64,000 nt of DNA. Source: Candidatus Cloacimonadota bacterium. Its GTDB lineage: Bacteria; Cloacimonadota; Cloacimonadia; Cloacimonadales; Cloacimonadaceae. The stretch spans positions 62,001 to 126,000 of the forward strand of contig JAKOXG010000006.1 of assembly GCA_029781115.1 (NCBI GenBank), in the 5' to 3' direction. The number at the start of each line of letters is the position of its first letter. The first letter of the stretch is position 1. The notes beneath the pieces were generated by a model. It saw only the letters and a list, made by a program, of their open reading frames with translations. It was not told the origin of the DNA and did not search any database. A program made the translations under genes and the position numbers. Shown piece after piece: positions 24,183 through 32,259 of the stretch.

Positions 24183-26798
24183 TTATGCTTGGGGTTCCTC
24201 GTCAGGTGTGGGAACTTCGGCTTCGGGCTCCTCGGGAACCTCGGTCGCTTCTTCAGCAGCTTCAGCCGGTGTTTCCACAGGTTCAGCTTCGGGTGCAGCT
24301 TCCTCTACGGGAGCTTCCTCTGCTGGAGTCTCTTCAACTGGAGCCTCCTCGACGGGGGCTTCAACTTCAGGCTCCACAACTGCTTCGGTGACTTCCACGG
24401 GGGCTTCCTCTACGGGAGCCTCTTCTGCAGGTGCTTCCTCTGCAGGAGTTTCCTCTACGGGAGTCTCTTCTGCAGGTGCTTCCTCCACAGGAGTTTCCTC
24501 AACCGGGGCTTCCTCAGCTGTAGTCTCTTCAACGGGAACTTCCTCGACGGGGGCTTCAACTTCTGGTTCCACAGCTGCTTCGGTGACTTCCACAGGAGTT
24601 TCTTCCACTGGGACTTCAGCTACGGGTGTTTCCACCACGGGAGCTTCGGTTTCAGGATCAGTGGGCTCTTCCGTAACCGCTTCAGCAGCCATTTCTGCAG
24701 CTTTCTGTTCTTCTTCGAGTCTCTTGGCCTCTTCCTTCTTTTTCTTCATCTGCTCGCGGCGTTGTTTGGCACGCTGAGCTCTTTCCTGTTTCTTCTTCTG
24801 AGCTTTGGCGAGCTTTTCACGCATAATCGCCTCATGGATAGCCACATACTCCTCATGGAGTTTGGGATCCCTGGAGAAGAAGAAGGCTTTTGCGCTCAGG
24901 ATCAATCTGCGGTTTTCGGAATCCAGCTCGATCACCTTCAAGGGGATTCTTTCCCCTTCCACAAAGGCGTCTTCACAGTTTTCCAGCTTGGGTATAGCCA
25001 GGTGAGAGATAGGCACAAAGCCTTCTATCACTTCCTTTTCGGTCTCCACATCCACCAGCACTCCCTTGGGGATAAGCTTGGTGATTTTGCCCAAAACTTC
25101 GGTGTTTACGGGCAGGATTTCAGGCAGGTCTTGCCAAGGATCCGGGTTAAGCTGTTTGACCCCTAAGGCAATGCGGTGTAAAGCTCTGTCGATGGAAAGG
25201 ATAACAGCTTCCACCTCTTGATCTTTGCTATACACTTCACGCGGGTGATAGACGCGCTTGGTCCAGCTGATGTCAGAGATGTGGATGAGCCCGTCGATTC
25301 CGTCTTCGATTTCCACAAATGCGCCAAAAGCGGTGATGCTCTTAATCTTACGGTTGAGGACGGTTCCGATGGGATAGCGGTCTTCGATCGTGAGCCAGGG
25401 GTTGGGATCCATCTGTTTCATTCCCAGAGAGATGCGCTGATTTTCCGTATCCAGCTCCAGCACGATGGCGTCGATCACATCGCCCACTTTGACAAACTTG
25501 CGTGCGTCGGAGATCTTTCTCGTCCAAGACATCTCAGAAATATGCACCAGTCCTTCCACACCGGGCTCCAGCTCTACAAATGCACCAAAGGATCTGACGC
25601 TCGTCACTCTGCCGGTGATGCGTGTGCCTTCGGGGAATTTGACTTCGATGGTCTCCCATGGATGAGGAACCAACTGCTTGAGTCCCAGTGAGATCCTTTC
25701 GTTTTCAGGCTCGAAGTTGATCACTTTGACCTTCAGCTTATCGCCGATGCCAAGCATCTCGGAGGGGTGATTGACCTTGCCCCAGCTCATATCGGTGATG
25801 TGCAGGAGTCCGTCGATACCGCCCAAGTCTACAAAAGCGCCATAGTTGGTGATGTTTTTCACTTCACCATCCAGCTCGGCGCCCACTTCGATGGTTGCCA
25901 ACAGTTCTTTTCTTTTCTCTTGTTCTTCGGCTTCCAAGACCAGTTTACGGGAAACGATGATGTTTTTATGGTTGTCATCCAAGCTTAACACTTTGAAGCC
26001 CAGCTCTTTGCCGATGTATTGGTCGATGTTTGGAATGGGGCGGATGGAGATATGTGAGCCAGGTAAGAAGGCTTCGATCCCAATCACTTCCACGATCATT
26101 CCACCTTTCACACGGCGGCGCACCACTCCTGGCAGAGCAGTGCCTTCATCGTAAGCTTTTTTGATCTTCTCAATGTTTTTGATAAAGTCGGCTTTCTTTT
26201 TGGAAAGCTCCAGTCTGCCCTCTCCATCATCCACGCGCTCAATGAATACCTTGATGGTAGAGCCAACTTCAGGGACTCCACCATAGCTAAATTCGCTGAT
26301 AGGTATCACGCCGTCGGATTTGTAACCAATGGCCACCACGACGTCTTTATCCGTCACATCAACTACAGTCCCATCAATGATCTCGCCTCTCTCAAGGCTT
26401 ACGGTGTATTTGTCATACATGTTGATCATTGCCTGACGGTCCATTTCTTCTTGGGTCACAGCAGCCTTAGGTTTTTCAAGCTCTGCTTCCTCGCCTTCTT
26501 GCGCCGGTGTTTCCACGGGCTCTGGCTCGGGTGTAACTTCCTCTGCTGCGGGAGCTTCTGGTTCAGGGGTTTCTGCCACAGGAGCATCTTCCACAGTAGC
26601 CTCAGCTTCAGGGCTTGGTTCAGGAGTTTGAGCTTCTTGCTCCGGCTCCTGAGGTTCTAATTCTGTTGGGGTTATGGTGCTAACTTCCTGTTCGGGTGCA
26701 CCGTCTTCGGGTTTGCTCTTCGACGTTATGTCTTCACCGACCTTTTCTTGGTTTTCATCCAGATCGACGTTGACGTTGTTTTGATCATGATCTAACAT
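24183..26798 (-). CDS. rpsA: ribosomal protein S1 with acidic Glu/Pro-rich extensions
   Basis: An 871-residue protein with six S1 RNA-binding domains, at about 131-200, 218-285, 302-370, 388-456, 475-545 and 560-632. Each has a typical GxxxxGxVxxxxxxGAFVxL(E/G)GxxGLxHISxMSW pattern or a diverged form. S1 helps mRNA bind the 30S subunit. Unusually, an acidic Glu/Pro leader of about 115 residues precedes the domains. After them come a Lys/Arg/Glu-rich linker (about 655-700) and about 165 residues of VEE(A/T)P-type repeats. The start has an excellent AAGGAGGA site. It overlaps the end of cmk-ispH by 7 bp, a neighbourhood also seen in other bacteria. The tail is low complexity and may vary between strains. 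Confidence 0.9.
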   Translation of the reverse strand: MLDHDQNNVNVDLDENQEKVGEDITSKSKPEDGAPEQEVSTITPTELEPQEPEQEAQTPEPSPEAEATVEDAPVAETPEPEAPAAEEVTPEPEPVETPAQEGEEAELEKPKAAVTQEEMDRQAMINMYDKYTVSLERGEIIDGTVVDVTDKDVVVAIGYKSDGVIPISEFSYGGVPEVGSTIKVFIERVDDGEGRLELSKKKADFIKNIEKIKKAYDEGTALPGVVRRRVKGGMIVEVIGIEAFLPGSHISIRPIPNIDQYIGKELGFKVLSLDDNHKNIIVSRKLVLEAEEQEKRKELLATIEVGAELDGEVKNITNYGAFVDLGGIDGLLHITDMSWGKVNHPSEMLGIGDKLKVKVINFEPENERISLGLKQLVPHPWETIEVKFPEGTRITGRVTSVRSFGAFVELEPGVEGLVHISEMSWTRKISDARKFVKVGDVIDAIVLELDTENQRISLGMKQMDPNPWLTIEDRYPIGTVLNRKIKSITAFGAFVEIEDGIDGLIHISDISWTKRVYHPREVYSKDQEVEAVILSIDRALHRIALGVKQLNPDPWQDLPEILPVNTEVLGKITKLIPKGVLVDVETEKEVIEGFVPISHLAIPKLENCEDAFVEGERIPLKVIELDSENRRLILSAKAFFFSRDPKLHEEYVAIHEAIMREKLAKAQKKKQERAQRAKQRREQMKKKKEEAKRLEEEQKAAEMAAEAVTEEPTDPETEAPVVETPVAEVPVEETPVEVTEAAVEPEVEAPVEEVPVEETTAEEAPVEETPVEEAPAEETPVEETPAEEAPAEEAPVEEAPVEVTEAVVEPEVEAPVEEAPVEETPAEEAPVEEAAPEAEPVETPAEAAEEATEVPEEPEAEVPTPDEEPQA

Positions 26799-28351
26799 GA
26801 TTCCTCCTTATACAAGGGGATTTCCCCGATGGTAGTAACTCGCTCGGGTTCCCCAATTATTTCTTTTATCCTGTTGTATACATTCAAGATGGTTTGTGAA
26901 GGTGTAGAAGCTCCGGCAGCCAGGCCGATGGTCTGCTTGCCTTGCAACCAATCAGGCTCGATTTCAGCCGCAGTCTCTATCTTGAAGCAATCACAATGCT
27001 TTTGGCAGAGCTGATACAGTTGAGTGGTATTGGAGCTATTTTGCCCGCCTATCACTATCATCAGATCTGCGATCTTGGCCAGATCGACGGTAGCCTTTTG
27101 GCGCTGCTGAGTGGCCAGGCAGATGGTGTTGTAAATCCTCAGTTCCTGCACGCGGGTGCTGAACCAGGCACTCATGGCGGCGAGGTCTTCCGGCTTCTTG
27201 GTGGTTTGGCAGATGATGCACACCTTGCTGTGAAAAACCTGCTCCGGCGTGCTGCCCGGCGCCAGGACAAGCGTGCTTCCATTGCCCCAGGAGCGCATCC
27301 CGATTACCTCTGGGTGATGCTCGTCTCCCATGATAATCACCTGATAATCCTCAGCAGACATCTCCTTAACCAATTGCTGAGCCCGTTTCACATAGGGACA
27401 GGTAGCATCGACTATCGTGTTTCCAGAAGCCTCCAAAGCTTCGTAGACCTCTCTGGAAGCACCATGAGAGCGGATGATAACGGTGTGATTCTGCAAGGGA
27501 GTGGGATCTTCACACACGAAAATCCCCTGCGCTGCCAGTTGGTTTACGACCACCGGATTGTGGATCAATTCACCCAGGGTGCACACGTTTTGGCTTGTTT
27601 TCCTGGCTTCTGTAGCCATCTGAATCGCCCTGCGCACACCAAAGCAAAAACCGGAATGCTCCGCCAGATAGATGGTGGTTGCACCCCGCTTTTGCGTGAT
27701 AGCTTTGTAAAGCACCTCTACCTGTTCTTCGATGCTCAAAGTTCCGGTATCCACCTCGATGGCGTCCGGCATTTTCATCAAAGGAGCCAAAGCGCGGCCG
27801 GCGTCGTTTTCATCTCTTTGCCTGATGTCTTTCAGCACATCCTGATAATCCACTTCCAAGCCACGTTGGGCCAGCTCATCAAACCTTCTCTGGGCTCTGA
27901 TCTCGGCATCTGCCACCAAGAAAAACTTGAAGTCTGCATCGGGAAACACATATGAACCTATATCACGTCCATCCAGGATGAACCCACCGCTCGAAGCGAT
28001 CTTCCTCTGCAATTCCACCATCTTCAAGCGCACGCTCGGCAAGGCGGAGATGGCAGAGGCTTGTTTGGAGATATGCTCACTGCGGATTTGTTGGGAAACA
28101 TCCTCATCGCCCAAAAAGATACGGTTTACGCCGCCGCTGAATTCCACCCGCAGCTGTATCTCGTCCATCATAGATTCGATCGCTGAAGCGTCATCCAAGG
28201 GCACAGCTAACCTCTCGGCCTGCAATGCACAAGCGCGATACATAGCTCCGGTATCCAGATACACCAATCCCAGCTTGGCAGCTAAGAGCCGAGCTGTGGT
28301 GCTCTTGCCGGAGGCAGCGGGGCCATCAATGGCGATAATAGGTTTTTTCAT
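26792..28351 (-). CDS. cmk-ispH: cytidylate kinase fused to IspH (HMB-PP reductase)
   Basis: One 519-residue reading frame joins two enzymes. Residues 1-215 are CMP/dCMP kinase: P-loop GPAASGKST near 10, DTGAMYRACA, and the LDGRDIGSYVFPDAD site. Residues 222-519 are IspH (LytB), the 4Fe-4S enzyme that makes IPP and DMAPP in the MEP pathway. The three cluster cysteines are in SGFCFGVRRA, DATCPYV and TICLATQQRQ, with catalytic-site GELIHNP and DEHHPEV. ATG 28351 was chosen because AAGGGA lies 6 bases upstream and kinases start MKKPIIAIDGP. The frame is open to 28399. Both halves look complete, so both activities are expected. Confidence 0.92.
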   Translation of the reverse strand: MKKPIIAIDGPAASGKSTTARLLAAKLGLVYLDTGAMYRACALQAERLAVPLDDASAIESMMDEIQLRVEFSGGVNRIFLGDEDVSQQIRSEHISKQASAISALPSVRLKMVELQRKIASSGGFILDGRDIGSYVFPDADFKFFLVADAEIRAQRRFDELAQRGLEVDYQDVLKDIRQRDENDAGRALAPLMKMPDAIEVDTGTLSIEEQVEVLYKAITQKRGATTIYLAEHSGFCFGVRRAIQMATEARKTSQNVCTLGELIHNPVVVNQLAAQGIFVCEDPTPLQNHTVIIRSHGASREVYEALEASGNTIVDATCPYVKRAQQLVKEMSAEDYQVIIMGDEHHPEVIGMRSWGNGSTLVLAPGSTPEQVFHSKVCIICQTTKKPEDLAAMSAWFSTRVQELRIYNTICLATQQRQKATVDLAKIADLMIVIGGQNSSNTTQLYQLCQKHCDCFKIETAAEIEPDWLQGKQTIGLAAGASTPSQTILNVYNRIKEIIGEPERVTTIGEIPLYKEESC

Positions 28352-28656
28352 ACAATTTCCCTTGTAAGACCAAGATTTTAAAGATTCAAGTGCGGTCAAT
28401 AACTATTTTCACATTGGCTAAAATATCTGCCCTGAAACACTCACGTAAATGCGCCTAACTTCCTCTATTGGTGCCGGATAGCGGCACCTTAAAACTTTTT
28501 TAATAAATCTGTCCCACAGCTCTGAAAAGACCTGTATAGACGCACACTGAGAGCTAAGCTCAGATAGCTTCGCATCGTCTTCGTGCTCCGATATCTCTTG
28601 CCTGTTTCACCAAGCCGCCTTATATTATCTGCACAGTTATTAAGGAGCGATTAAGT
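28352..28656. other. 305-bp divergent promoter region between cmk-ispH and dgt
   Basis: Contains the predicted dgt promoter and a 7-bp perfect hairpin GGTGCCG-GATAG-CGGCACC at 28470-28488, followed on the plus strand by TTAAAACTTTTTT. No gene reads into it from the left, so it could be an attenuator, or the end of a small transcript I cannot define. GAGAGCTAAGCTC at 28549 is a further small palindrome. Confidence 0.4.
28598..28626 (+). promoter_or_regulatory. predicted sigma-70-type promoter of dgt
   Basis: TTGCCT (28598-28603), a 17-bp spacer and TATATT (28621-28626) lie 30 bp upstream of the start codon, with AAGGAG between. Good consensus spacing; sequence evidence only. Confidence 0.55.
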
Positions 28657-29808
28657 ATGAAAGACAACTTGAATAAATTGTTCTCACAAATCAGAGAGAG
28701 CTACCAATGTGCCTTGGGGCCGCGTGCCTTCAGGGAACAGGACGCCACGCGCAGGCATGTGGAAGATGAAGACGAGATGCGCACCCGCTTTGCCGTGGAT
28801 AGAGACCGCATCCTCTACAGCGGCTCTTACAGACGCTATCACGGCAAGACGCAGGTCTTTTCCTTCACCAATCTCATCGACGAGGAGATGACCAACCGCA
28901 ACCTCCACGTTGCGCACGTATCGCAGATTTCCCGCACCATTGGCAAATACTTGAGGCTCAATACCGAGCTGATCGAAGCCATCGCCTTGGGGCACGACCT
29001 GGGTCACCCTCCCTTCGGGCATGATGGTGAAAAAGCGCTCTCCGAGAGCTGCGTAAAGCATGGAATAGGTGAGTTTCACCACAACATAGAATCCCTGTAT
29101 ATCGTGGATAACATCTCACGCAAAGGACAGGGTCTCAACCTCACTTTCCAGGTGCGGGACGGCATCATTTCCCACGATGGAGAAGTGCACAACACCCGCT
29201 TGGAGCCGGAATTCAACAAGACCGAAGCAGAGATTCAAGACTACATCACCAGAAAGAAAGCCGGTGAATTTGTCCACTGGATGCCCAGCACCCTGGAAGG
29301 CTGCGTGGTTCGCATTGCCGACACCATCGCCTACATCGGCCAAGACATCGAAGACGCCATCCGCTTTAAGATCCTCAAAAGGGAGGACTTACCCAAAGAA
29401 GCCACCCAGTATTTGGGCAATGAAAACAGCCAGATCATCGAAACGCTGATCAAGAGCGTGATCGCCAACAGCGTAGACAGGGATTGGATCGCCTTTGATG
29501 AGGAAACATCTTACCATCTGCTTGAGCTAAAGAAGTTTAACTACAAATACATCTACACGGATAAGAACGTAAAACACGCCAATGCAGTCATCAACCGCAC
29601 CATGGGCATGCTCTTTGATATCTATATGGAAGACATCCGCAAAAACAATACGGACTCCATGATTTTCAAACACTTCCTGGATCATAAGGTTGACGCATAC
29701 CGAGAAGGCCTCTTGCCGGCAGAACAGGTGCGGGATTTCATTGCCACCATGACGGATAGATATTACAACGAGCAGATTAAAGACCATTTCCTGCCTTGGA
29801 AATGGTAG
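28657..29808 (+). CDS. dgt: dGTP triphosphohydrolase-like HD-domain enzyme
   Basis: A 383-residue HD phosphohydrolase of the dGTPase family, which releases triphosphate from dNTPs and so tunes nucleotide pools. The family N-terminus RDRILYSGSYRRYHGKTQVF is present. The metal ligands lie in LHVAHVSQISR, ALGHDLGHPPFGHDGE (HD pair), and the later D in VVRIADTIAYIGQDIEDA. Length matches the shorter dGTPase-like type 2 proteins. AAGGAG precedes the ATG. The last codons (LPWKW, stop) form the first unit of a 73-bp tandem repeat that runs on into the intergenic region. Confidence 0.9.
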   Translation: MKDNLNKLFSQIRESYQCALGPRAFREQDATRRHVEDEDEMRTRFAVDRDRILYSGSYRRYHGKTQVFSFTNLIDEEMTNRNLHVAHVSQISRTIGKYLRLNTELIEAIALGHDLGHPPFGHDGEKALSESCVKHGIGEFHHNIESLYIVDNISRKGQGLNLTFQVRDGIISHDGEVHNTRLEPEFNKTEAEIQDYITRKKAGEFVHWMPSTLEGCVVRIADTIAYIGQDIEDAIRFKILKREDLPKEATQYLGNENSQIIETLIKSVIANSVDRDWIAFDEETSYHLLELKKFNYKYIYTDKNVKHANAVINRTMGMLFDIYMEDIRKNNTDSMIFKHFLDHKVDAYREGLLPAEQVRDFIATMTDRYYNEQIKDHFLPWKW

Positions 29809-29951
29809 CTAAAAGCAGTATGCACTGTTTGGGTGCGGCGGTTCAGCGACCGCCGGCTACCTCCTGCCCTGGAAATGGTAGCTGAAAGCAATATGCTCTG
29901 TTTGAGTGCGGCGGTTCAGCGACCGCCGGCTACCTCCTGCCCTGGAAATGG
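29791..29951 (+). repeat. 73-bp tandem repeat derived from the dgt 3' end
   Basis: Unit starts at 29791, 29864 and 29937 are exactly 73 bp apart: two complete units plus 15 bp of a third. Each starts CTGCC(T/C)TGGAAATGG, the codons for the last four residues of dgt, and the first two run on through the stop codon. Each complete unit holds a strong hairpin CGGCGGT-TCAGCG-ACCGCCG. The two complete units differ at only a handful of positions, so the duplication is recent or maintained. Confidence 0.9.
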
Positions 29952-29977
29952 CAGGCTGCCAAGGGTTTAGAAAGCTC

Positions 29978-31087
29978 CTACTTTAGATAAGCTTCCAGCA
30001 CCAGATCTCCATCCAAAACCATGCAGGAACGGATGTCTATCTTGATGGCATTGGCGATATTGCCCAGGTTCAGCGAGCTAAGCGCAGCTCTATCTCCGCC
30101 TATGATCTTGGAGCCGTAGTAGATGAGGAGTTTATCCACCAAACGCAGACGGACAAACTCCGATGCCAGCGCACCGCCGGATTCCAACAACACGCTGTAA
30201 AAGCCTCTATTGTGCAGAAAATCCAGCACTTTGGGCAAGCTCAGGTGCGTGCCTTCCAACCCGATGGGCACCAATTCCACGCCCATATTTCTCAGGATCG
30301 CCGCCTTCATAAATTGCTTCCGCCCCAATACCGGCGCATGAAACACCATCAGCGGCGCTTGATCCATGCTCTTGACCAGAGCGCAATCGATGGGCAGCTG
30401 CAAATCCTTATCCAACACCACCCGCAGGGGTTGGCGCCGAGCCAGGGGAATCCTGGAAGTGAGCAAAGGATCATCTGCCAACACCGTGGAAATGCCCACC
30501 AACATGCAATCTACCTGATGCCTCAGGACATGCACCTGCATCCTGGAAGCGGCTGAACTGATCCACTTTGACGACCCATCCGGTGCAGCGTATTTACCAT
30601 CCAAACTGAGCGCCATCTTCAGGATGACGAAGGGTCTGCCCTTCTGGATTCTGCAAAGGAAATATTCATTTTGCCGGGCTATCTCTTCTTCCATGTAGCC
30701 CCAACTGACCTCTATCCCCGCTTCCCGCATGGCGACGATGCCAACCCCCTCCTTGCTGATATCCTCATTGACTTGGGGGTTGGGATCGCGGATGCCAAAA
30801 AACACTCTTTTGATCCCCGCTTTGATGATCGCATCCGTGCAGGGAGGCGTCTTTCCCTGGTGTGAACAGGGCTCCAAGGTCACATAGAGGTCTGCCCCTT
30901 TTGCCTTTTCACCGGCCAACTTAAGTGCCATAGCTTCTGCGTGATACGAGCCATAGCTTTGCGTGTGCGCTTGGGCGATCACCACATCATCCTTCACCAC
31001 TACCGCGCCCACAAAGGGGTTTGGAGAGCAGAAGCCACGCGCCTTTTCCGCTTCCTCAAAAGCCATTTGCATATATTTTGGGTTCAT
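29978..31087 (-). CDS. ribD: bifunctional riboflavin biosynthesis deaminase/reductase
   Basis: A 369-residue enzyme for steps 2 and 3 of riboflavin synthesis. The N-terminal zinc deaminase has YHAEAMAL and EPCSHQGKTPPC (ligands H, C, C; catalytic E). The C-terminal reductase starts near residue 150 with RPFVILKMALSLDGKYA and carries SKWISS, LVGISTVLADDP and LLESGGALASEF for NADPH and substrate. The start overlaps the stop of the TPR gene (ATGA). It ends a nadE-TPR-ribD operon, which groups NAD and flavin cofactor synthesis. No other rib gene or FMN riboswitch is seen here. Confidence 0.95.
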   Translation of the reverse strand: MNPKYMQMAFEEAEKARGFCSPNPFVGAVVVKDDVVIAQAHTQSYGSYHAEAMALKLAGEKAKGADLYVTLEPCSHQGKTPPCTDAIIKAGIKRVFFGIRDPNPQVNEDISKEGVGIVAMREAGIEVSWGYMEEEIARQNEYFLCRIQKGRPFVILKMALSLDGKYAAPDGSSKWISSAASRMQVHVLRHQVDCMLVGISTVLADDPLLTSRIPLARRQPLRVVLDKDLQLPIDCALVKSMDQAPLMVFHAPVLGRKQFMKAAILRNMGVELVPIGLEGTHLSLPKVLDFLHNRGFYSVLLESGGALASEFVRLRLVDKLLIYYGSKIIGGDRAALSSLNLGNIANAIKIDIRSCMVLDGDLVLEAYLK

Positions 31088-32259
31088 TTGTGCCTTTCCA
31101 TGTTTCTCTTTGCCGGCTCCAGATTGGGATCAATCTGCAAAGCCTTCTTCCACAGCTTCTTAGCCTCTTCTATCTGCCCCTTGCCCGCATAGGCAGCACC
31201 TAAATTGTTAAGCACCAGCGGGTCTTCGCTATTCTTCTCATAAAGCTTTTCAAACCAATACATTGCCTCATCCAAATCCTCCTGAGCCAAGTTGATCGAG
31301 CCCAAGGAAAAGGTAGGCGCATAAAAATCGTTGTCCAAGGCGATGGAATCAAAGAAGGCTATCTTAGCCTTATCCAGCTGCTTCACGATCTGCCAATAGA
31401 TGCCCAAATAGTAGTAAAGATCGGCACTATCGGGGTATAGCTTCAAACCTTCCTGCAAGGCTTCCCAAGCCTGAGCATCCTTGCCCTCGGAAAGAAGCTG
31501 CGCTATCTGACCGTGACGCTTATTGAGCTCATAAAACAGCTTGGGACTGCCATTTATCTGATACCTGAGTCGCCAAACATCGCCCTGCTTGCCAAAGATG
31601 AGCGTCCAATCAAAGCGACGGTTGAGCTCCAGATAAACCATCGCCGTGACGCCATCATCGGCTATGCCGGCATGGATGATATTGTGATGATTTGCCCTCT
31701 TCAACATGGGGATGTCTCGGATGATTTCTTTGTAACGCTGAGCCAGATCCTCTTCTGCGTCTTGATTGATGGTAAACTGCCTCAGCTTGTCCCACTCCAT
31801 TGCAATCACGCAATTTAGATAGTCTGCGGCGATGCTTTCAGGATCCTTTACTTCAGGCTCAGGATACTTCTCCAACCCCAACTTGCCTAACAGATAATTC
31901 ATGGGGAAATGCTGAGGGTATTGATAGCCGGCCAGCCACTCCAGGAGCTGCTTACTATCCTCTGCAGCCACTGCCAAAGGCGTCTTTCCATCCAGGGAAG
32001 CTTGAGGCTGCGAGATCCACAAATCCAAATACAGCTTGATGGCATGGTTGAATTCGGTAACTGAATCTGCCTTAAAAGCAGGCAGGGGGCTGTTTTCATC
32101 CTCTTTGAGCGCATAGGCACATTCGCTGGGACAGCGTTTGTCCAAGCGTATTTCGTTGCAGCAACGCCAGCCTATCTCCTTCCTGCGTCTGGCACAGGTG
32201 CGTAAGGCTCGCTCACTCCGGCAGATACGGCAACGGTCAGACTTGCGAAATCTCAGCAT
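31084..32259 (-). CDS. TPR protein with an N-terminal cysteine-rich region
   Basis: A 391-residue protein. The first 47 residues hold seven cysteines (10, 13, 22, 33, 34, 43, 47), beginning RCRICRSERALRTC, which suggests a zinc-binding or SEC-C-like module. The middle (about 95-250) has no family I recognise. The C-terminal 140 residues hold three to four tetratricopeptide repeats (for example SADLYYYLGIYWQIVKQLDKA and PLVLNNLGAAYAGKGQIEEA). There is no signal peptide. It overlaps nadE by 7 bp and ribD by 4 bp, so all three are tightly coupled. Probably a protein-interaction factor; role unknown. Confidence 0.8.
   Translation of the reverse strand: MLRFRKSDRCRICRSERALRTCARRRKEIGWRCCNEIRLDKRCPSECAYALKEDENSPLPAFKADSVTEFNHAIKLYLDLWISQPQASLDGKTPLAVAAEDSKQLLEWLAGYQYPQHFPMNYLLGKLGLEKYPEPEVKDPESIAADYLNCVIAMEWDKLRQFTINQDAEEDLAQRYKEIIRDIPMLKRANHHNIIHAGIADDGVTAMVYLELNRRFDWTLIFGKQGDVWRLRYQINGSPKLFYELNKRHGQIAQLLSEGKDAQAWEALQEGLKLYPDSADLYYYLGIYWQIVKQLDKAKIAFFDSIALDNDFYAPTFSLGSINLAQEDLDEAMYWFEKLYEKNSEDPLVLNNLGAAYAGKGQIEEAKKLWKKALQIDPNLEPAKRNMERHK

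Follow-up and report, generated by a model that had tools for sequence, protein, structure and literature searches.

Repetitive extragenic palindromes (REPs) are widespread and the manner of their spread is unresolved (PMC8266576, PMC3116915), the accessible text of Corneloup et al. (2021, PMC8266576) describing the mechanism of dissemination as still to be elucidated. According to that text, the enzyme TnpAREP leaves a 3′-OH, with priming of DNA synthesis and strand transfer both offered as ways for REPs to spread, and in vitro a GTAC head shifted cleavage to GA and GT sites. In Pseudomonas fluorescens SBW25, 16 tandem clusters of REPINs (two inverted REPs) occur with flanking sequence, and in this species REP doublets have been seen excised and single REPs, in the accessible part of the report, have not, its authors holding the doublet to be mobile (Bertels and Rainey 2011, PMC3116915). 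Four cases of BIMEs capturing the 3′ ends of rayt genes have been described (Nunvar et al. 2010, PMC2817692), and in the text available from the same paper IS200/IS605 elements generate no larger target site duplications. That REP clusters are repeated with flanking DNA, and that REP arrays capture gene ends, has already been published, as far as the accessible texts go (PMC3116915, PMC3733652, PMC2817692). The array behind a dgt gene that we describe here is a further case of this known type, made a variant by the layout of its duplications and by the natural GTAC and GTAT heads in its genome.

The array lies in the 64,000-nucleotide stretch of Candidatus Cloacimonadota DNA that was analysed (the window). 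We denote the window's own genome G000 and the related genomes compared with it G001 to G005. The gene dgt (28657..29808, plus strand; open frame, Pfam, NCBIfam) encodes a dGTP triphosphohydrolase-like HD protein of 383 aa ending in FLPWKW-TAG, with the Pfam domains HD and HD_assoc and a match of 171 bits to NCBIfam TIGR01353 (cut-off 152), and is convergent with ribD (29978..31087, minus strand; open frame with Pfam RibD_C and a deaminase domain). Between them, TRF places a tandem array at 29789-29951 with a period of 73, 2.2 copies, 94% matches and a score of 291, the highest of the five TRF rows in the window. Other TRF rows include 15/45-bp tandem repeats at 24297-24557, in the Glu/Pro/Val-rich end of an open frame that we take to be ribosomal-protein-S1-like, and upstream of dgt a single open frame at 26792-28399 apparently fuses two genes, presumably cytidylate kinase and IspH. 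The array begins with the coding copy of the dgt end (copy 1, 29789..29808, plus strand), followed by linker 1 (29809..29834), a palindromic element on the minus strand (REP 1, 29835..29860, GTAG head at 29857-29860; C16:91835-91860, 0 mismatches), a non-coding copy of the dgt end that keeps its TAG (copy 2, 29862..29881, plus strand), linker 2 (29882..29907), a second minus-strand element (REP 2, 29908..29933, head at 29930-29933; C16:91908-91933, 0 mismatches) and a partial dgt end without stop (copy 3, 29935..29951, plus strand).

A sequence-only reading of this locus had described a 73-bp tandem repeat with each unit opening with the dgt end, and TRF and the unit comparison agree on it. 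The units 29791-29863 and 29864-29936 are identical at 68 of 73 positions and differ at 29796, 29811, 29818, 29824 and 29832 (four in linkers, one in the dgt end and none in the REP), while copy 3 equals unit 2 over 15/15 nt from 29937. The coding copy of the dgt end reads CTGCCTTGG and both non-coding copies read CTGCCCTGG. The repeated part had been given as the last four codons and the stop; the stop is indeed included, but the sense codons are five (CTG CCT TGG AAA TGG), and the statement that codons and stop are kept downstream holds for copy 2 and fails for copy 3, which has TGGCAG in place of the TGGTAG of copies 1 and 2. The strong hairpin of that reading is borne out, the folding energy of 29780-29960 being -80.1 kcal/mol and the mean for shuffled sequences -63.2 (z -3.9). 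Its suggestion of a repeated intrinsic terminator is not, since the terminator scan gives no site at either REP hairpin and a T-run is absent. The single match of the scan (0.5 expected) is the dgt-end stem on the minus strand, a 9-bp inverted repeat within the dgt end (ACCATTTCC-6-GGAAATGGT, 29783..29806), in whose loop region the duplicated segment begins. An Rfam search of 28500-31200 gave nothing up to E 1.

The hairpin behind dgt is a REP element, dispersed in the genome and not private to dgt. Read on the minus strand, each unit has the REP layout of GTAG followed by a GC-rich imperfect palindrome (GTAG-CCGGCGGTCGCTGAACCGCCGC). Searching G000 with the array gave 52 matches, mostly short and centred on the hairpin, and the 26-nt REP alone had 57 matches within 3 mismatches, with none for the reversed control. 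Exact 18-nt REP cores numbered 58 in G000 (control 0), and within 1 mismatch we found at least 84 in G000, 23 in G001 and 82 in G005 (control 0); the many copies dispersed through the genome place the element with the REPs of the GTAG super-family. The elements are mainly extragenic, as 73 of the 90 testable clusters (of 220) did not lie wholly within an open frame of at least 150 aa, a raw, uncalibrated figure for mechanically called frames. Related palindromes with GTAC, GTAT and GTAG heads are abundant in the loci compared. The tail of the GTAG class is often a second small hairpin (43 elements in two genomes, by eye), the sides of which covary (atcaagc-gca-gcttgat and agcaggc-gca-gcctgct, by eye), and the copies at dgt seem, by eye, to have a decayed tail of this kind, which the minus strand of linker 1 resembles. 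Both REPs at dgt are on the minus strand, and the two inverted REPs that make up a REPIN or classical BIME are thus not found there. The surroundings of REPs hold other dispersed repeats, CACGAATTACACG-like and TAACACCTAACACCT-like strings (e.g. at L028, L080 and L019), which confound repeat statistics, and at G000:C3:23643 (L101) and G000:C10:193993 (L018) REPs lie inside or beside CRISPR-like arrays of regularly spaced repeats, as judged by eye.

The locus was found in three states. In G001 the site is empty: dgt ends in TGGTAG (CTGCCCTGGAAATGGTAG) and the convergent ribD ends 11 nt later. G005 carries one REP behind dgt with the dgt end on both sides, the downstream copy (TTCTGCCCTGGAAATGGTAGC) running on into the intergenic sequence that follows dgt in G001, and the window adds to this a second REP and a third dgt end. 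One copy in G001 thus corresponds to two in G005, with junctions continuous with the old flanks, as in a target-site duplication. The coding copy shares a C-to-T change in G000 and G005, and the non-coding copies retain the C of G001-G004. Within the stretch read, G002, G003 and G004 have no REP behind dgt, and their downstream neighbour also differs. Among public relatives, we surveyed the dgt 3′ ends of 41 of 45 loci (L171, L174, L176 and L179 were left out), and a duplicated end was seen only in L136, which has the coordinates of G005 and an alignment score of 29, the next best of the 41 scoring 18. Among named records, the dgt of the Cloacimonetes MAG UBA3900 came closest, at 95%. In L149 (HGW-Cloacimonetes-1), a palindrome preceded by GTAC (CGGAGCTT-GCCG-AAGCTCCG) lies about 27 nt past the dgt stop and may be a REP that arrived independently at this position.

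These states bear on several explanations of the array. That the assembly read a single unit as two we regard as very unlikely: short tandem repeats are easily misassembled, but the units differ at 5/73 positions and a form with one REP and two copies occurs in the separately assembled G005. The earlier idea of a buffer, with the extra copies protecting the gene from losing its end, appears less credible still. The C-terminus (LPWKW and variants) is well conserved in the 41 loci, by eye, yet the duplicated end is found in one of them, the extra copies lie behind the stop and, at a spacing of 73, out of frame with the gene, copy 3 has no stop, and REP insertion accounts for the copies without selection. 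We instead consider it probable that the array originated from a REP insertion with a target duplication of about 20 bp, the unit being doubled later. On this reading, the 3′ end of dgt was the target of a REP with a GTAG head, a member of the REP/RAYT system of this genome, which would have integrated in minus-strand orientation, presumably driven by RAYT activity. A direct duplication of the ~20-bp target, arising at insertion, would have placed the dgt end on both sides of the REP, the upstream copy remaining the gene end and the downstream copy joined to the former intergenic sequence. A later head-to-tail doubling of the unit of dgt end and REP, in the lineage of the window, would account for the second REP and the third copy. 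The direct repeats may have given rise to the second unit by unequal recombination or by slippage, the latter being the likely source at dgt. The array had earlier been called a possible slippage product, and a duplication product it is; plain slippage of dgt does not suffice, however, as any slippage would have been built on an inserted REP.

A different account is that REP hairpins are kept by selection between the convergent genes, shielding or defining the mRNA 3′ ends of dgt and ribD. It gains from the convergence of the two genes, the strength of the hairpins and the influence that REPs in E. coli and S. maltophilia are reported to have on mRNA stability and on transcription (PMC3686654, accessible text), and also from the 26-nt REP being identical in G000 and G005 while the adjoining linkers are not alignable. 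But the hairpins lack a T-run, three relatives of the genus have no REP behind dgt, G001 has the same convergent pair without a REP, and the duplicated dgt end is left unexplained. We find such retention by selection improbable; the hairpins may nevertheless affect the 3′ ends of both mRNAs as a by-product. The non-coding dgt ends of G000 and G005 differ, by eye, at about 1/21 nt and are thus more alike than the adjoining linkers, a pattern that the insertion reading leaves unaccounted for.

REP-associated tyrosine transposase (RAYT)-like genes are present in the window's genome. G000 has two Y1_Tnp genes (28.6 and 24.0 bits, cut-off 23), the products of which are both 221 aa long and 74% identical to each other; against NCBIfam REP_Tyr_transpos, the model for REP-associated tyrosine transposases, they scored 70.9 and 63.1 bits, under the curated cut-off of 80. 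REPs surround both genes, as in a REP/RAYT system: at G000:C20:41253-43214 (L079) we counted 8 GTAC, 4 GTAG and 1 GTAA heads around the gene, and at G000:C19:403-2050 (L080) 12 GTAT and 2 GTAC heads. The sister genes with their differing REP heads (predominantly GTAC and GTAT, respectively) form a natural pair for studying the retargeting of the guide tetranucleotide. A PDB sequence search with one RAYT gave nothing up to E 1. G001 has one RAYT-like gene (one REP was found in the surrounding ~3.6 kb) and, at another place, a fragment of 22 residues. Searches of G002, G003 and G004 found no copy of this RAYT and no exact REP core, and G003 has a Y1 transposase of a different type. No RAYT was detected in G005 (99% complete) despite 64 exact REP cores, and this richness in REPs without a RAYT counts against the insertion reading; REPs without their RAYT have also been reported for Pseudomonas (PMC3686654, accessible text).

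To see how far the layout at dgt extends to other REPs, we compared the 80-nt flanks of 220 REP clusters (106 in G000, 30 in G001 and 84 in G005), which represent part of the REPs in the three genomes; 6 of 226 clusters had no such flanks. Direct duplications scoring at least 28 were found at 17 of the 220 clusters, in comparison with 40 of 2519 mismatched pairs, a control whose pairs are not mutually independent, so that P values from it are indicative, and 9 of 3000 random places. This supersedes a smaller earlier test of 90 clusters (8 matches at score 28 vs 5/621). The remaining 203 clusters were under the threshold and weigh against the insertion reading as a general account; the absence of duplication there may reflect decay or another route. 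Among the 191 same-strand clusters (29 of the 220, with REPs on both strands, were excluded from this count), the head-side copy ended at most 7 nt before the REP head in 9, vs 11 of 3567 mismatched pairs. With a CRISPR-like repeat removed (G000:C3:23643, recognised by eye and taken out of the 9/191 only), 8 of 190 clusters had a copy ending 1-7 nt before the head. These 8 rows represent six loci: dgt (G000 and G005), G001:C5/G005:C63, G000:C20:7207, G005:C32:12138, G005:C9:18229 and G000:C3:2769. At G001:C5/G005:C63 there is a second empty site, G000 having no REP where G001 and G005 carry one between copies of 26-27 nt. G000:C20:7207 is a third case, older and diverged, in which the genes are adjacent in G002 and G003 and REPs lie between copies of a gene start in G000, G005 and G001. 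A single REP is present at each of dgt (G005), G001:C5/G005:C63, G005:C9 and G000:C3:2769.

At the abutting loci the duplications range from 17 to 38 nt and are thus not constant in length. A constant duplication length is typical of most DDE transposases. The linkers between the REP and the second copy span 10-38 nt. No donor for them was seen among the other REPs listed, none of which extends further than 6 nt into the linker of the G001 locus. Inspecting nine sites by eye for the expected cleavage dinucleotides at the junctions (CT for GTAG; GT or GA for GTAC) showed nothing consistent across them; the border at dgt in G000 is CT. Eight of the 17 duplication matches do not have the abutting layout. 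Our count of target duplications excludes G005:C76:17974, rows of the AGGTGTTAG type (three, in G000:C4) and of the ACGAATTACAC type (one, in G005:C47), a 24-bp case of other geometry whose neighbourhood is rearranged in G005 (G000:C3:34795) and the exact 82-bp duplications around REPs at G000:C17:71002-71051 and C19:14816, which look like slippage or template switching; all uncounted rows remain within the 17/220.

The 82-bp duplications fit a rival history in which a REP inserted cleanly and later slippage or template switching at the hairpins of the REP and the dgt end copied the dgt end and doubled the unit. The dgt end being itself a 9-bp inverted repeat also agrees with it, as do the tandem REP clusters with flanking DNA described in the accessible texts (PMC3116915, PMC3733652). 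On the other hand, the one-REP site of G005, with copies continuous with dgt and with the old intergenic DNA, would on this history need a further deletion, and at six loci a copy stops 7 nt or less from the head. We consider this history unlikely as a whole, although the slippage-like 82-bp cases, the 24-bp case of other geometry and the linkers that matched no donor stand as points against insertion with target duplication.

The distribution of the REPs adds a complication. The dgt REP is common to G000 and G005 and the C5/C63 REP to G001 and G005, so that one or more events of precise loss, of lateral exchange or of repeated insertion must have intervened. Over 5 kb adjoining dgt, G001 and G005 are the closest pair (86.0% vs 84.3% and 83.6%), at odds with the presence of the dgt REP in G000 and G005 and a difficulty for its insertion in a common lineage, while the informative sites in dgt (21, 18 and 18) are undecided on the relationship. 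For the dgt REP, the explanation may have to include either lateral exchange or exact removal of the element from G001. If the insertion reading is true, recombination between the duplicated copies would yield such a precise loss, and an insertion could later vanish cleanly.

Tentatively, the observations may be drawn together into a wider reading, possible but one on which we would not rely: REPs here would move replicatively, duplicating a target of ~17-38 nt with the head 1-7 nt from the copy, unlike IS200/IS605, and the two sister RAYTs would use retuned GTAC and GTAT heads, a pairing that as part of the same reading would be the counterpart in nature of a change of guide reported until now in vitro. 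Because the single-strand transposition of IS200/IS605 leaves no larger target duplication, we propose a copying route in which DNA synthesis from a RAYT-generated 3′ end would be followed by a backward template switch; this would leave the REP between target copies of variable length, such as the 17-38 nt seen. A point against insertion at dgt is that in P. fluorescens the doublet is held to be the mobile unit (PMC3116915, accessible text), while at several loci here the unit inserted seems to be a single REP. The insertion reading, if true, explains how gene ends are copied into REP arrays. Paired empty and filled sites with target duplications are a signature to seek in any REP-bearing genome, and would make cut-and-paste and replicative spread testable against each other.

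GTAC/GTAT heads, and duplication of the target at single REPs, seem less well known than REP arrays with flanking DNA. We found no report of target duplications at REPs in the main texts of the accessible literature, including the available parts of PMC2817692, PMC3116915, PMC3733652, PMC6006769, PMC8266576 and PMC3686654, and no paper in the accessible literature naming both the phylum Cloacimonadota and repetitive extragenic palindromic sequences. In comparison with the BIMEs, as far as their description is accessible (PMC2817692), the likeness is that a gene 3′ end and the DNA up to the REP joined the inter-REP segment; there, the gene is rayt itself and the REPs alternate in orientation, whereas the dgt array involves an unrelated gene, both REPs point in the same direction, and empty and one-REP states exist in relatives. 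The clusters of SBW25 similarly consist of head-to-tail units of flank and element, but their unit is a REPIN and that of dgt a single REP (PMC3116915, accessible text). The GTAG super-family shares the GTAG-tagged palindromes, single or in tandem with variable flanking DNA (Di Nocera et al. 2013, PMC3733652), and the abundant GTAC and GTAT heads and the flanking duplications of 17-38 nt at some REPs go beyond the accessible part of that account. IS200/IS605 and the RAYTs belong to the same transposase superfamily. TnpAREP is likewise a Y1 HuH enzyme whose cleavage can be guided by the REP tetranucleotide (PMC8266576, accessible text), and in contrast to the in vitro system, the GTAC and GTAT heads found here are natural and lie beside RAYT-like genes.
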